Positions 58,388 to 64,000 of a DNA stretch of 64,000 nucleotides are shown in pieces. The stretch is taken from positions 186,001 to 250,000 of the forward strand of contig JAJCXN010000039.1 of NCBI GenBank assembly GCA_029263415.1. The letters run 5' to 3'. The stretch's first letter is position 1; every line of letters starts with the position of its first letter. The notes below the pieces were generated by a model. That model was given only the letters and a program-made list of their open reading frames with translations, made no database searches and had not been told where the DNA came from. The stretch comes from Acidobacteriota bacterium (GTDB taxonomy: Bacteria > Acidobacteriota > Thermoanaerobaculia > Multivoradales > Multivoraceae). The translations under genes were made by a program, and so were the position numbers.

Positions 58388-58897
58388 TCACTGAGTCAGA
58401 GCGGAGACGATCTCGTCGAGGGCGCTGTCTGCCAGGGCACTGATTTCCTCATCGGTTCGGTCCTGGATCGGGTGCGGGATGAGGACCGCGCTGGGAGTTG
58501 TTCCTAAGGACTTGGCCTGCGCGGCCGCAGCGTCTTTGAAGACTTCTGAGGCTACGAACGCCGTGGCGAGTCCCATTTCTTCCAAGGCAGCCGTGTCGTG
58601 CACACTGCACGACGTGCAAGATCCTCAGTCAGCGAGCGCTTCGATGACCGCGTCACAAGTCTCTGAGATCTTCGCTCGGAGGTCCTGCGGTGCGTTTTTG
58701 GTGAACGTGGGCTTGCGGTAACGCTCAATGCGGGCGCCCCTTTTCGCGAGATGCTCAGAAACCCGGTCCAAGAAGACGTCACCACGTGGCTTCGAGATAT
58801 CGAGAAGTCCGATGACTGCACCGTCGAGACTCTCGAGTCGCGGCGAGCGTGGACGGTGAGTGGGCTTGAGCTCGCTTGAGGGGTCGAGTAACTGCAT
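58388..58897 (-). CDS. UGSC family selenoprotein with in-frame TGA as Sec91
   Basis: Two open frames that appear separate are in the same reading frame and join through TGA at 58627-58625 to give one 169-residue protein. The joined sequence contains ALAD-U-G-S-C-T-S-C-SVHDTAALE, which is the motif of UGSC (seleno)proteins, in which Sec or Cys occupies the first position; here Sec91 is followed by C94 and C97. The ATG at 58897 has AAAGGAC 7 nt upstream. Cys replaces Sec in some homologues, and the family was noted in marine metagenomes; its function is not established. The genuine stop is also TGA, at 58390-58388. A hairpin with SECIS geometry follows the TGA. Upstream is a thioredoxin-fold protein that may be its partner. 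Confidence 0.9.
58595..58613 (-). promoter_or_regulatory. SECIS-like hairpin just after the Sec TGA
   Basis: On the mRNA, GUCGUGCA and UGCACGAC pair perfectly over 8 bp around a GUG loop. The stem begins 12 nt and the loop 20 nt after the TGA, and the loop starts with GU, as bacterial SECIS elements require for SelB binding. The element lies within the coding sequence and constrains codons CTS-C-SVHD. Confidence 0.7.
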
Positions 58898-58985
58898 GAT
58901 CGTCGTCCTTTGGTGATTACGCATCGATACCGCGAAGGGTGCGGTTGCCGAGGATACTCCCATTGCGGGGTCGCTGGAACCTTAG

Positions 58986-60479
58986 CTATTGCACGATCCG
59001 TTTGGTAACCGGTGTGCTGCCAATGTCACCGTTGACCCAACCCCCGATGATTGCTGAGAATAGCCCCGCTTGACCCCCGGCATGGACAATGAGCAGACCG
59101 TCAGGTTTGAACTTGGGCAGCGCATCAGCTTCGGCTAGGGCCGCTGGCACGCCTTCCGCACAGCCGCCCGCTCCGCGCAGGAGTTCTTTGGGGGGCGATG
59201 TCAGCAGGCTGTGGAGTCGGGAGGTCAGGTCGGAGCGGCTCCAACCCGCCTCCTTAAAAACGCGCGCGTGCTCAGGTGAGACCACCAGAACGGCATCGAA
59301 TCCCAGGATCAGCTTGGGGTGGGCGACCGTCTTTAGAGTCATGGCAAACGATGTCGACAAGGATTCAGGCTCCCGCGAAAGCTGGTCAATCAGTCCTCGT
59401 GGGCCCTCTCCTGCGAACAGGGTCACCGCCGAATCACCTACGGCAATCCCGCGCGACTGCGCCAAGGATGGCCAGGGTGACTGCTCCTCGTTCTCAGCGA
59501 AACAGAACGAGAGTTTGCCCGGATTGCCCAGAGTCGCTCGATCGATCTCGCCTGGACGCGCACCGCCGACATTACGCAGGGTCAAGTTCAGCGCTCGGCC
59601 GATGGTCATGTTGGCTCGGTTACCTTGTCCGAGCGCGTTGATGCCCGAGTTCATTCCTAGCTTCTCAGCGATTGGACCGTTGACCATCACCACCGGTCCC
59701 GAAAAGTATGTGGTGGCTGCGAGACCGTGCCAATTGAAAACTGGATCGCAGGCAGCCTCCACCGCGGTCAGCACCACCGGCAGGTACTCGGGCAAACAGC
59801 CCGCCATGACCGCATTAATCGCGACCTTCTCGACTGTGCAGTCGACGTGGTCAGGCGCAATCTTGGCGACGAGCTCCGTCGGCGCTCGATCAGTCCCTCG
59901 AAGCATGCGATAGACCCGTTCTGGCGTCGGCGGCACAACCGGAAGGCCGTCGGTCCAGCCTCGTGCGAACGCCGCCTCGAACTCGTCTTCCTGGTCACCC
60001 AGTTCAATGCGCCGAGAGGCGAACTCTTTGGTTTGGAGTTCGAGTCGTTCGAGATGGGCGGGTTCAAGATTGAGCGAGCCGCAGCCGGGTCGCGATTCGG
60101 GCAAGGATGCACCCAGGTCATCGAGGTTGGTCAACTGTCGCCACTCAGCTCGGTTCCATCCGATCGCACATTCCGTGGCCACTCCGTCGTGAATTACGTA
60201 GAGCGTCGGTACGATCTCAGTTTTCAGCCTGTGCGATCGTTCGAGCGAAGAGTCGAAGCTTTGGCCGCAGCGTCCGTCGACGTCGCTGAGTTGGGGGAAC
60301 GCGGGGTCGTCCTGGCTGAGGACGGTGAGCTTGAGACCGCCGTCAATCATCTCCTGCAACGCAGGCACGACCAACTGACAGGTTGGGCAGTCATGCTTGA
60401 CCACCAACAGCAAACCGTCGGGTTCACGCCTTGGGGGTGTGCCGTCTGCCGCTGACGATTGCTGGTGAGTGTTTTGCAT
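58986..60479 (-). CDS. Thioredoxin-fold (CPTC) protein with large uncharacterised C-terminal domain
   Basis: A protein of about 497 residues upstream of the selenoprotein gene, on the same strand and 88 bp away. Residues 20-105 have a thioredoxin-like fold: LLLVVKHDCPTCQLVVPAL with the redox motif C31-P-T-C34, and the cis-proline loop EIVPTLYVIHDG. From about residue 175 a second domain starts with GWTDGLPVVPPTPERV and includes INAVMAGCLPEYLPVVLTAV, FSGPVVMVNGPIAEKLGMNSG and GNRANMTIGRALNLTLRNVGG; I cannot assign it to a known family. ATG 60479 was chosen because the longer frame (to 60665) shows no homologous pattern; its ribosome-binding site is weak. The adjacency implies a disulfide-exchange partner for the UGSC protein. 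Confidence 0.75.
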   Translation of the reverse strand: MQNTHQQSSAADGTPPRREPDGLLLVVKHDCPTCQLVVPALQEMIDGGLKLTVLSQDDPAFPQLSDVDGRCGQSFDSSLERSHRLKTEIVPTLYVIHDGVATECAIGWNRAEWRQLTNLDDLGASLPESRPGCGSLNLEPAHLERLELQTKEFASRRIELGDQEDEFEAAFARGWTDGLPVVPPTPERVYRMLRGTDRAPTELVAKIAPDHVDCTVEKVAINAVMAGCLPEYLPVVLTAVEAACDPVFNWHGLAATTYFSGPVVMVNGPIAEKLGMNSGINALGQGNRANMTIGRALNLTLRNVGGARPGEIDRATLGNPGKLSFCFAENEEQSPWPSLAQSRGIAVGDSAVTLFAGEGPRGLIDQLSREPESLSTSFAMTLKTVAHPKLILGFDAVLVVSPEHARVFKEAGWSRSDLTSRLHSLLTSPPKELLRGAGGCAEGVPAALAEADALPKFKPDGLLIVHAGGQAGLFSAIIGGWVNGDIGSTPVTKRIVQ

Positions 60480-60881
60480 TCGATGGTGCCACAGGGATTC
60501 GTTGGAGGGGGCATTCGTCCACGCTTCGGCGACGGAAGCAGAACGCTCAGTGCGAGCCGACGAGCATAGATGACCTGGTGGCTGATGAATAGGCGAATGC
60601 AGCCTTGCTTGAAGAAGTGGGCAAATCGGCACGACTATTGGTGGATCTGATGGCGTACATGGCATAGATTTCTATGTTCGAGTACGTGGAGAGTGGCCGA
60701 GCCGTTCCGGTTCTGGCAGAATTCTTGCTTATCCCAATGAGTGTCCACGTCTCGTGTTGCGCGCTGCAGTCCTGTGCGACATCAATCGCTTCAACTTAAG
60801 GCGCATTCCGCGATTCTGGCCGCTGCCGAATTGCGACGCCACAGCCCACAGCGGCTTACATCACTGAAGGAGTTCAGCCCC
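60480..60881. other. 402-bp divergent intergenic region
   Basis: This gap separates the divergent thioredoxin-fold and substrate-binding protein genes. It must hold both promoters, but I saw no clear -35/-10 pair, palindrome or riboswitch. A strong AAGGAG ribosome-binding site precedes the ATG at 60882. Open frames extending into it from both sides lack coding character. Confidence 0.5.
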
Positions 60882-62141
60882 ATGAATCCCCGACAAACCT
60901 CCACAAGTCTGCCGTTGCGATCCTTCACGTCTCGCGCGAAGTCGCTCGCCGTTCTAGCAGTCCTGCTCAGCTTCGGTCTGTTGTTCAGCGCCTGCCCGCC
61001 GTCCAACGAATCGAAGATCAGTGTCATTCTGCCGCTCTCAGGCGAGTACTCCCAGTACGGTCAGGCCATTCGCAATGGCATCAAGCTCGCTGAGGAGGAA
61101 ATGCTCGCAGCCAAGCCTGGACTGGGGTTGACCCTTGAGTACCTCGACTCGGAAAGCGACGCCGCTAAGGGTAAAGCGCTGCTTGAAGAGGCTTACAAGA
61201 CCTCGATTGCAGCGATCGGTGGAGCCACCAGCTCCGAGGCGCTAGAACAGATCCAAGCTGCTGAGGTTGCTGAGCGGGCACTCATTTCGCCCACAGCGTC
61301 GAGCCCGGCCCTATCTGGTGCGTCGAGGAACTTCTTCCGCATATTCCCCAGTGCCGACGTGGAATCCGCCGTTTTGGCCGGCTACGTGACGAACCAACTG
61401 GCGTCTCGGCGCCTGGCCATCCTCTACCAGAACGATGCTTACGGCTCCGCCACTTCAGAGTCGCTGAAGAAGGTGTTCACTGGCGAGGTTGTTCAGGAGG
61501 TTCCTTTTGTGATCGCGGGAGACTTGGGCGAGGCGGTCGCGGCGATTGTCGAGTCGGATCCTCAAGCCGTGTACGTTGCGGCGATTGGTGAGGACCTCGC
61601 TCGTGCCATTCGGGCCCTTCGCGATGCTGGCATTGTCGACGACGAAGAGAAGAAGCAGTGGATTCTGACCAGTTCTGCTTTGGTCAGCCCGCAGGTTCTT
61701 GCATCGGCTGGCAGTGCCGCGAACCGTGTGTTTCTCGCGCAGACGGAGTTCGATCTTGACTCGCAAGAGGAACCGATCGCATCGTTCATCCCAGCGTTTG
61801 AGGCGAAGTACAACACCAAGCCTGGTTACTACGCCGCTCACGGCTACGACGCCATGCTGGTTGCAGTCGCAGCCCTCGAAGAGGCTGGCGCCAACGCCTT
61901 GCCGGTCGACTTCATCAAGGCCCTGCGCAACATCAACAATCTGCCCGGCGTAACTGGAAGCATCCAGTTTCGTGAGAGCGGGGACGTGCAGAAGTTCACC
62001 AAGGGGTACTGGATTGTCGACGGAGTGCCTATTGACTATGAAGCGTACGTCAAGAAGAGGGCGGACGAGATCAAGGCGCTGCAGAACGAGCTTCGCAAAA
62101 AAATGGATGCAAACGCTCGGAAGCTTCGCGACGCTGGCTAG
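60882..62141 (+). CDS. Lipoprotein branched-chain amino acid type substrate-binding protein
   Basis: A periplasmic binding protein of about 419 residues (type I fold, LivJ/AmiC-like). A lipoprotein signal VLAVLLSFGLLFSAC leads to a lipidated Cys. Hallmarks are ISVILPLSGEYSQYGQAIRNGIKLAEEEM, VEYLDSESDAAKGK-like (LEYLDSESDAAKGKALLEEAY), AIGGATSSEALEQI, ISPTASSPALSGASRNFFRIFPSADVES, and RLAILYQNDAYG. The C-terminal helical tail (KKRADEIKALQNELRKKM) is longer than usual. No permease or ATPase gene is adjacent in either direction, so it may be an orphan receptor or serve a transporter elsewhere. The start is fixed by AAGGAG 10 nt before ATG 60882. Confidence 0.9.
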   Translation: MNPRQTSTSLPLRSFTSRAKSLAVLAVLLSFGLLFSACPPSNESKISVILPLSGEYSQYGQAIRNGIKLAEEEMLAAKPGLGLTLEYLDSESDAAKGKALLEEAYKTSIAAIGGATSSEALEQIQAAEVAERALISPTASSPALSGASRNFFRIFPSADVESAVLAGYVTNQLASRRLAILYQNDAYGSATSESLKKVFTGEVVQEVPFVIAGDLGEAVAAIVESDPQAVYVAAIGEDLARAIRALRDAGIVDDEEKKQWILTSSALVSPQVLASAGSAANRVFLAQTEFDLDSQEEPIASFIPAFEAKYNTKPGYYAAHGYDAMLVAVAALEEAGANALPVDFIKALRNINNLPGVTGSIQFRESGDVQKFTKGYWIVDGVPIDYEAYVKKRADEIKALQNELRKKMDANARKLRDAG

Positions 62142-62167
62142 CGAGCAGCTGACTTGCCTCGAAGGGA

Positions 62168-62198
62168 ACGGTCGGCCTAGCGCCGGCCGTTTCTCGTT
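62168..62198 (+). terminator. Intrinsic terminator after the substrate-binding protein gene
   Basis: ACGGTCGGC (62168-62176) pairs with GCCGGCCGT (62182-62190) across a CTAGC loop with one G-U pair, followed by TTCTCGTT. The hairpin is 27 bp after the stop codon and has the stem/U-run arrangement of a Rho-independent terminator. Confidence 0.75.
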
Positions 62199-62382
62199 GG
62201 GGCTATGACTGGTGCTGGTAGAACCCCGACGGGGTGGATGTTCGCCGGGCAGGAGGCGGGACGATGCGGTCGCTCGGGGCGATCGCCTGGGGCACCGTGC
62301 GGTAGGATGCCGCCTCTTGATGACAGGTTGAAGTGATGGTGGGCGGCCTCGCGGCCCCTTCAGACTCGTGGAGGAGATTCCA

Positions 62383-63774
62383 GTGGCAGGTATTCAACGG
62401 TACGGCAGCTACGTTCCCTTTTGTCGGTTGCAACGGTCGGCGATTGGCGCAGGCAAGGGTGAGCGCGCCGCGGCCAGCTATGACGAAGATGCTGTGTCGA
62501 TGGCAGTCGAGGCCTCGCGCGAAGCAATGCGTGCCTTCGAAGGTGGGATCGATCGCTTGGTCTTCGCAACCACTAGTGCGCCCTACCTCGAGAAGCTGAA
62601 CGCCACCACAATCCATGCCGCCCTAGATCTTGACTCTGCGGTGAGTGCTTCAGATATGACGACTTCCAGCCGCTCAGGCGTGGTCGCCTTGAGCGACGCG
62701 TTGGACGCGTCGCATGCCGGTCGTACCACGTTGGTGGCGGCTTCGGATGTGGTGGTGGGAGCGCCGGGCGGACCCCGGGAGTCGCAGGGCGGAGACGCTG
62801 CAGCGACGGTCGTGGTGGGTCCTGGAGATGGAATCGCCAAGCTGATTGGGCGCGCGTCGCGCACTGAGGAAGTGCTCGACGTCTGGCGCTCTGAAGGTAT
62901 GGCGTTCGCTAGCCAGTGGGAAGAGCGCTTTGGAGCTGAGGTCTTTGTGCCGATGTTCGCGTCAACCATCCAAGCAGCGCTCGCCGATGCCGGAATCAGC
63001 GCCGACGATCTTGATGCAGCGCTTATCGATAGCACCAATGCGCGCGTTAACCGCGCAATCCCCAAGGCGACCGGGATCGCAGCTGAGAAGTTTTTGGGAG
63101 CTGCGGAGTTTGCTGGTTCAGTGGGTCGCGCCGGGGCGGCAAATGCGGCCTTGCTGCTCGCCAACGCCTTGGATCAAGCCAAGCCGGGCGACAAGATCCT
63201 GGTGGGAGTCGCAGCGGACGGAGCGGATGTGCTGATCTTCGAGGCGACCGATGCACTTGCTGATGCGCGACCGAAGCACTCGGTTGCTGATTGGCTGGCT
63301 TCGAAGAAAGACGACTTGGCCTACACCGCTTATCTCAAATGGCGCGGAGTATTGCCGTTCGAGCCACCACGCCGGCCAGACCCAGATCGTCCGGCCTCAC
63401 CGCCAATGATGCGCGCGGAGCGGTGGAAGTACGCCTTTGTGGGCTCGAAGTGCACCAAGTGTTCGGCGGTCAACCTGCCACCTCAACGAGTGTGTGTGGC
63501 GTGTCAGGCAGTTGATGAGATGGAGCCAGTTCAGTGTGCGGATGCACAGTGCCGAGTCGCGACATACACCATCGACCGGCTCGCCTATTCGCTGCAACCG
63601 CCTGTCGTTGCTGCGGTGGTAGACTTTTCTGAAGGTGGCCGCCTCAATTGCCAGCTCACCGATGTCGACCCCGAGAGCGTCGGCATTGGCGATGAACTGG
63701 AGATGACCTTTCGCCGTTTCTTCGTGGCGGGAGGCGTGCACAACTATTTTTGGAAGGCGCGGCCCCAGCGCTAG
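62383..63774 (+). CDS. Thiolase-like (HMG-CoA synthase family) protein fused to a DUF35 domain
   Basis: A 463-residue fusion. Residues 1-320 have the thiolase-like fold of hydroxymethylglutaryl-CoA synthase/KAS III (MAGIQRYGSYVPFCRL, GIDRLVFATTSAPYLEKLNATTIHAALDL, AAEFAGSVGRAGAANAALLLANAL). The position of the catalytic Cys is occupied by Ser in SASDMTTSSRSGVVAL, so condensation activity is unlikely. Residues 340-463 are a DUF35 module: a zinc ribbon with C357-x2-C360 and C371-x2-C374, then an OB-fold ending FFVAGGVHNYFW. Such modules hold CoA for thiolase partners; the next gene encodes one. The GTG at 62383 is preceded by GGAGG 8 nt upstream; a GTG five codons earlier is less likely. Confidence 0.87.
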   Translation: MAGIQRYGSYVPFCRLQRSAIGAGKGERAAASYDEDAVSMAVEASREAMRAFEGGIDRLVFATTSAPYLEKLNATTIHAALDLDSAVSASDMTTSSRSGVVALSDALDASHAGRTTLVAASDVVVGAPGGPRESQGGDAAATVVVGPGDGIAKLIGRASRTEEVLDVWRSEGMAFASQWEERFGAEVFVPMFASTIQAALADAGISADDLDAALIDSTNARVNRAIPKATGIAAEKFLGAAEFAGSVGRAGAANAALLLANALDQAKPGDKILVGVAADGADVLIFEATDALADARPKHSVADWLASKKDDLAYTAYLKWRGVLPFEPPRRPDPDRPASPPMMRAERWKYAFVGSKCTKCSAVNLPPQRVCVACQAVDEMEPVQCADAQCRVATYTIDRLAYSLQPPVVAAVVDFSEGGRLNCQLTDVDPESVGIGDELEMTFRRFFVAGGVHNYFWKARPQR

Positions 63775-63869
63775 CGCCTCGTGTCGAAAGCGACCTCAAG
63801 ATCAAAGGCTCCACGGACGGAATAGCATCGACATCGCGGCTTAGCATCGAGAACGAGAAGGAGAGAGCA

Positions 63870-64000
63870 ATGGGCAGCAAGGGAATTTGTGATCGCGTAG
63901 CCATCGTCGGGATGGGTTGCACCAAATTCGGTGAGCACTGGGGCAAGAGCGTTAGCGATCTCTTGGTCGACGCAGCGCACGATGCCTACCATTCCGCGGG
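63870..64000 (+). CDS. Thiolase (SCP-x type acetyl-CoA acetyltransferase), N-terminal fragment
   Basis: The gene starts with ATG at 63870, with AAGGAG 8-9 nt upstream, and continues past the right edge; 43 codons are visible. The N-terminus DRVAIVGMGCTKFGEHWGKSVSDLLVDAAHDA is the pattern of SCP-x/lipid-transfer thiolases (AIVGxGxTxFGxxxxxSxxDLxxxA), which work with DUF35 proteins. Pairing with the fusion gene 95 bp upstream strongly suggests a complex acting on acyl-CoA in sterol/fatty acid side-chain or related degradation. The catalytic region lies outside the window. Confidence 0.85.
   Translation, partial: MGSKGICDRVAIVGMGCTKFGEHWGKSVSDLLVDAAHDAYHSA

Follow-up and report, generated by a model that had tools for sequence, protein, structure and literature searches.

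The 64,000-nucleotide stretch of Acidobacteriota DNA analysed here (hereafter the window) carries on its minus strand, at 58388-58897, what its sequence identifies as a genuine selenoprotein gene of the known UGSC family, and this family is tied to that of a partner protein encoded upstream. Profile comparisons place UGSC as a remote relative of the selenocysteine (Sec) domain of GrdB and PrdB. We lean slightly towards a reading in which UGSC and its partner would form a two-part, thioredoxin-fed reductase with a mode of action like that of the glycine or D-proline reductase B component. The features of the selenoprotein gene are:

58388..58897, minus strand: UGSC-family selenoprotein, 169 amino acids, ATG at 58897, terminal stop TGA at 58390-58388.
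58625..58627, minus strand: in-frame TGA assigned to Sec91 from the translation with TGA as Sec and from relatives.
58586..58624, minus strand: UxxC stretch GSCTSCSVHDTAA, in which Cys94 (58618-58616) would pair with Sec91 and Cys97 is variable in the family.
58595..58613, minus strand: putative SECIS hairpin of bacterial type, with a stem of 8 bp and a 3-nt GUG loop, located 11 nt downstream of the TGA.

Translation of the minus strand from 58897 to 58391, with TGA as Sec, gave one frame of 169 residues, made of 90 residues, Sec91 and then GSCTSCSVHDTAALE..., with a Shine-Dalgarno-like AAGGA recognized by eye 5' of the ATG. The open reading frame listing cuts this gene in two (58625-58963 and 58388-58603). 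The UGSC profile PF24696 spans both halves (residues 3-169, profile positions 2-172 of 172, E 7.2e-44), and the joined protein scored 150.4 bits against a curated cut-off of 25 bits with PF24696 and 150.8 against 125 bits with NF041046. The earlier note had described a single selenoprotein gene split into two open reading frames by a Sec TGA, with the frame resuming unshifted behind it; its coordinates proved right, the strand (minus) having been left unstated, and both the translation and the end-to-end PF24696 match bore out the unshifted frame. With the same whole length, the UxxC motif and a Sec that has Cys homologues, the protein shows no family-level difference from the PF24696/NF041046 family; the window copy is unfused and adjoined by a thioredoxin-bearing partner.

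The motif of the window, Sec91-G-S-Cys94, is the one that names the family. Both Sec91 and Cys94 are kept in 20/20 members of alignment A2, whereas in some of them W, S, A or F takes the place of Cys97. Either C94 or C97 had been put forward as the residue resolving Sec91; because C94 is invariant in this alignment and C97 variable, C94 is the likelier candidate. Relatives continue past the TGA rather than ending at it, with homologous sequence in 33/33 frames (the window, 29 loci and 3 further frames), these rows having been retrieved with a whole-family model, which favours full-length matches. In the phylum sample of 297 genomes, 32 of which contain UGSC matches, each of the 34 best matches, all above 120 bits, has exactly one internal TGA, and about fifteen weaker matches have none (e.g. 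a partial match in G176 covering positions 2-75).

Homologues with Cys at the Sec site, which the earlier note had suggested aligning, were found at 52 loci in named genomes by a Cys-only pattern, Cys being at the Sec place by pattern design. Among them are Alpha-, Beta- and Gammaproteobacteria, Bacteroidota, Actinomycetota, Clostridiales and Methanobacteriota. For 89 rows, of which 35 are Sec and 54 Cys, a tree requires at least seven switches between Sec and Cys, three of them forced by well-supported branches, so that Sec and Cys have repeatedly taken each other's place. In Geodermatophilaceae, selenoproteins with the UGSC motif are reported to use a reassigned Sec codon matching a tRNA-Sec with anticodon CUA (PMC5330540).

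Analysis of the source genome (6.89 Mb in 60 contigs, 99.2% complete) supported the claim that this organism decodes UGA as Sec. It encodes a tRNA-Sec with anticodon TCA (Rfam tRNA-Sec, 71.1 bits; ARAGORN call tRNA-Sec (tca)), selB (329 bits), selA (457.7 bits) and selD, all over their cut-offs; selB and tRNA-Sec, the two components by which the earlier note proposed to judge Sec decoding, are thus both present. The selD gene (G000:C23:163515-164576) lies within an 833-aa open frame and is perhaps a fusion. The tRNA-Sec match was dropped as a means of sorting genomes: 297/297 genomes match at E 0.001, presumably via serine tRNAs, and 229 are over the cut-off. Since the terminal codon of the UGSC gene (58388-58390, minus strand) is also TGA, with no hairpin obvious by eye behind it, UGA serves both as Sec and as stop within one gene.

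The sequence following the in-frame TGA, GTCGTGCA-GTG-TGCACGAC, forms a perfect 8-bp stem and is a putative bacterial SECIS hairpin. Its folding energy is not special (z -1.48; P 0.23 against synonymous recodings); its 8/8 stem pairs are reached by just 1.3% of synonymous recodings. The same pair-count test gave values below 5% for 9/12 Sec and 3/12 Cys sequences. All eight pairs were present in 16/31 distinct Sec genes versus 0/54 Cys genes, with seven pairs in 4/54 of the latter, and 10/31 Sec genes, which are divergent fused paralogues, do not fit the hairpin register; this set was limited to frames that stay open for 25 codons beyond the site, with identical 75-base stretches collapsed, and by such selection cannot alone prove that relatives read on. 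For covariation, 14 Sec genes out of the 31 were used, a choice that excluded near-copies and the 10 divergent paralogues, along with 14 of the 54 Cys genes. In the Sec set 94.6% of cells pair and 4 cells are altered on both sides; shuffles gave 4 double-changed cells in 0/500 cases and 2 pairs so changed in 24/500, figures that serve as a guide and carry no probability, related sequences sharing history. Three of the double-changed cells convert G-C to A-U in columns 12 and 30, at third codon positions and synonymously, and the fourth (L022) turns C-G into G-C and thereby replaces a Cys by Trp. In the Cys set 68.8% of cells pair and covariation is at shuffle level (126/500). The stem covaries in Sec, and not in Cys, relatives. 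An Rfam scan for SECIS elements over 48-64 kb of the window returned two weak matches, both to other families.

It is extremely improbable that the TGA is a true stop or an error, leaving two short genes or a pseudogene. Ordinary gene-caller output does give two open reading frames for the 58388-58897 region, and by energy alone the window hairpin is not significant; against this stand the full-length PF24696 match across the TGA, the Sec machinery in the same genome, the TGA or Cys found at the equivalent site throughout the family and the restriction of hairpin covariation to Sec genes.

UGSC is reported among the commonest selenoproteins of aquatic metagenomes, with 255 Sec sequences (PMC2398784). 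The earlier statement that these proteins are abundant in marine metagenomes thus holds as regards a major family overall, and less well as regards habitat, the nonmarine frequency in the same source being higher than the marine one. In the literature consulted, UGSC is listed separately from GrdB and PrdB. Full-text searches of open-licence papers revealed no function for UGSC, no partner beyond a note on a domain named 'Unknown_1' fused to it (PMC2398784), and no statement of kinship between UGSC and GrdB. As fusions also occur in our data, 'Unknown_1' is possibly the partner domain described below, an identity that we offer as a guess.

The partner comprises the following features:

58986..60479, minus strand: partner protein, 497 amino acids in the form used, upstream of UGSC on the same strand and 88 nt apart; its start is inferred, the open frame extending to 60665.
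60123..60422, minus strand: thioredoxin-like domain of the partner, with CPTC, assigned by predicted structure and structure comparison.
58989..60023, minus strand: C-terminal partner domain, about 340 amino acids (DGLPVVPPT...), common to the aligned partners.

The UGSC family is tied to the family of this upstream protein. A partner lies beside or is fused to UGSC in 51/52 Cys loci (upstream in 41, downstream in 6 and within the same frame in 4), and was found in 17/20 UGSC regions fetched from the phylum, of which two (L063 and L065) were selected for, and hold only, Sec-less copies; no partner was in reach in the other three (L048, L051, L058). Among the 297 genomes, both families occur in 30, UGSC only in 2, the partner only in 1 and neither in 264, so that 30 of the 33 genomes having either have both (Fisher p 1.2e-37 by genome and 2.6e-16 by genus, with counts of 12, 1, 1 and 153, kinship above genus being ignored). 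The two UGSC-only genomes (G134, G151) contain partial matches without a TGA and the partner-only genome (G121) a match of 44 positions where a contig ends; the count retains all three. In genus g2 the two genes are divergent in the three regions seen (L052, L059, L060), so that the association outlasts gene order. Two UGSC and two partner genes were found in 10/11 genomes of this genus, the members of the second pair being non-adjacent and far apart. In the remaining genome, G176, each gene is present once, and a UGSC remnant of 75 positions (C1:1661252-1661470) is located at the site of the second full copy of sister genomes; the second partner is also missing.

The predicted structure of the partner (pLDDT 90.8) confirmed an N-terminal thioredoxin-like domain with CPTC, whose best structural match is chain 1z5y_E (Z 9.6, rmsd 2.8, 102 residues). 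No acceptable Pfam or NCBIfam family was obtained for the C-terminal domain among 39 members scanned, 29 aligned partner rows contain no invariant Cys, and comparison of the partner with solved structures by sequence gave 0 matches at E up to 1. Structurally, the C-terminal domain bears a faint likeness to class I fumarate hydratase (best Foldseek E 6.2e-4, TM 0.22), with no clear fold match. Where annotated, the PLSDB plasmid copies are called 'hypothetical protein' (24 records). A relation of the partner to GrdE was considered, one of the 39 members matching at E 0.093 and one, in Pfam, at 0.02, and was rejected: the match at 0.02 is attributed to chance because the partner-GrdE profile probability is 0.07%.

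To which known proteins UGSC itself is related was addressed by an NCBIfam scan of 20 members at E up to 1. It matched GrdF in 14, GrdB in 13 (best 3.6e-5), GrdH in 6 and PrdB in 3, and the general selenoprotein-B model in 6/20; six unrelated families were matched in the same scan, by one member each. Against eight GrdB sequences, a UGSC profile reached a probability of 94.0% (single-comparison E 1.4e-7), Sec being aligned on Sec; against five PrdB sequences it reached 73%. Control comparisons gave 0.1% for partner-GrdB, 0.3% for UGSC-partner and 12% for UGSC-GrdE. UGSC thus appears as a remote relative of the GrdB/PrdB Sec domain. We do not file it as GrdB, because the match is remote and under the family cut-offs (14.9 against 800 bits for GrdF, 12.8 against 300 bits for PrdB). 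With the Sec domain of GrdB, GrdF, GrdH and PrdB it shares the Sec position and UxxC, and likely feeding by thioredoxin; it differs from GrdB and PrdB in lying far under their cut-offs, in being much shorter than GrdB, in having an unrelated partner, and in coming from a genome with no match to the GrdE/PrdA pyruvoyl subunit (PF09338), which was matched in 1/297 genomes of the phylum sample. That sole genome also has a GrdB with an in-frame TGA (L128:7612-8964, plus strand). A GrdB search in the Clostridiales genome of L093 gave no match, though control queries there matched nothing either.

An AlphaFold model of UGSC with Cys for Sec (pLDDT 93.6) displays five strands alternating with helices, an arrangement that we take to differ from the thioredoxin order. 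Residue 91 is located between strand 83-89 and helix 92-107. The fold matches of the model are of Rossmann/flavodoxin-like type, and thioredoxins are absent among its best 50 structural matches, a listing that does not exclude a thioredoxin fold; such a fold was thought likely for UGSC in PMC2398784. The best VIA match is 8s7v_H, from the methyl-CoM reductase activation complex (Z 12.2, 127 residues), which scores within 1 of a designed protein and ranks second in Foldseek after lumazine synthase. By sequence, comparison with solved structures gave nothing useful (best E 0.28, talin).

In D-proline reductase, the selenolate of PrdB is proposed to attack proline at its alpha carbon while the substrate is bound to the PrdA pyruvoyl group, a Cys of PrdB itself then releasing the product as a mixed selenide-sulfide that PrdC reduces (PMC3091704); the same Sec-then-Cys-then-reductant chemistry is proposed there for GrdB. 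By analogy, and from the pairing and the kinship with GrdB, we infer a reductase role for UGSC and its partner. First, the C-terminal domain of the partner would hold the substrate, standing in for the pyruvoyl subunit. Secondly, the selenolate of Sec91, at the start of a helix, would attack an activated bond, and Cys94 would free the product through a selenenylsulfide. Thirdly, this selenenylsulfide would be re-reduced by the partner's own thioredoxin domain or by a separate TrxA, with electrons supplied by NADPH through thioredoxin reductase. The product, possibly a small carboxylate or acyl unit, would be handed to CoA-ester enzymes. Such chemistry need not be limited to amino acids, because a GrdB-type pair has been proposed to cleave the carbon-fluorine bond of fluoroacetate (PMC10838667). 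That pair, farB/farE, resembles our reading of UGSC in that a GrdB-type Sec protein is proposed to cleave a non-amino-acid reductively, and differs in consisting of a GrdE homologue and GrdB proper, from a rumen anaerobe.

On the other side of the partner, the window contains two further genes:

60741..62141, plus strand: periplasmic binding protein (PF13458), divergent; also a neighbour in three same-family genomes.
62368..63774, plus strand: HMG-CoA-synthase-like protein with an OB-fold domain; also a neighbour in three same-family genomes.

A thiolase gene that follows the latter runs off the window, the order having been checked in two genomes of the family (window 60741-64000, L164, L165). 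A search of 79 regions (20 from the phylum, the 52 Cys loci, 6 plasmid regions and the window) found as neighbours the partner (75), a CaiB-type CoA transferase (22), LysR (20), a TrxB-like protein (18) and a tripartite-tricarboxylate binding protein (17); several of the query proteins had been taken from those same plasmid regions. The CaiB, LysR, TrxB and tripartite-tricarboxylate binding families are common in Alcaligenaceae. The TrxB-like gene occurs in 14/52 Cys loci, each at least 48% identical to the query, as a raw count of a minority clustered in few lineages, with three of the query proteins derived from regions counted, and an annotated trxB was present in 3 of the 6 plasmid regions opened, once with trxA. 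A LarA lactate racemase gene (PF09861; L048:5309-6616, minus strand) adjoins the UGSC copy of L048, which has no partner in reach. In actinobacteria and a haloarchaeon (L123, L124, L106, L107), phosphosulfolactate-synthase-like genes occur close to the pair, a possible hint to the substrate.

The UxxC redox motif, the thioredoxin domain and the TrxB neighbours would equally suit a thioredoxin-dependent peroxidase or thiol repair protein, with the partner as a docking or regulatory subunit, and among the titles cited in PMC3091704 is one on the peroxidase activity of GrdB. We consider this quite unlikely: the recurrent neighbours are catabolic (CaiB, binding proteins, LysR), a large conserved partner domain without an invariant Cys is unexpected for a peroxidase, and the many paralogues of genus g52 suggest substrate diversification.

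In this genus (L053, L063-L066; G113, G037, G274, G122), UGSC and partner are fused in paralogues, with at least 7 to 11 matches listed per genome; several of them have N-termini that resemble signal peptides by eye. Among the fused frames looked at, 9/13 carry something other than Sec or Cys at this position and keep the partner domain. Likewise, in the fused proteins of Vibrio and Sporomusa plasmids (L126:7323-9008 and L127:7281-9005), MGTS replaces UGSC and the partner domain is kept. Aconitase X genes lie near these MGTS fusions. Because some fused relatives have no UxxC pair, not every UGSC member can be a redox enzyme; in these members either the function has changed or the partner contributes its own chemistry.

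An alternative reading is a lyase, isomerase or hydratase with its main active site in the partner domain, Sec or Cys acting as nucleophile or base without net reduction, or being dispensable in some members, and thioredoxin keeping it reduced. Retention of the partner domain in fused relatives without Sec or Cys, its faint fumarate hydratase likeness and the aconitase X, lyase or thiolase genes near some copies are consistent with such an enzyme. It nevertheless seems unlikely to us, since the UxxC motif kept in 20/20 A2 members would be superfluous for a non-redox nucleophile, the GrdB/PrdB kin are reductases, and the thioredoxin domain and TrxB context speak for redox chemistry. Our leaning towards the two-part reductase stays slight mainly because the fused relatives lacking UxxC keep the partner domain; the remoteness of the GrdB kinship, the source genome's lack of a PF09338 match, the partner's lack of an invariant Cys and of a clear C-terminal fold match, the minority of TrxB neighbours, the three phylum regions with no partner in reach and the widely separated second pair of genus g2 also count against it.

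A possible, if doubtful, extension of the reductase reading is that UGSC and its partner represent a third, pyruvoyl-free branch of the Stickland-type selenoprotein reductases. Served by a built-in or neighbouring thioredoxin, this branch would cleave a bond in small carboxylates before their CoA-linked catabolism. It would have spread over proteobacteria, Bacteroidota, actinobacteria, haloarchaea and methanogens, and multiplied in genus g52 together with fused variants, some no longer redox. Many of the groups bearing UGSC are, to our knowledge, not known as amino-acid fermenters. Beyond the earlier note, the present analysis adds the partner gene next door, the relation to GrdB and PrdB and the thioredoxin reductase neighbours. 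By linking UGSC to a partner, to thioredoxin and to GrdB/PrdB, it makes the function of this family testable on its Cys versions, without selenium machinery.
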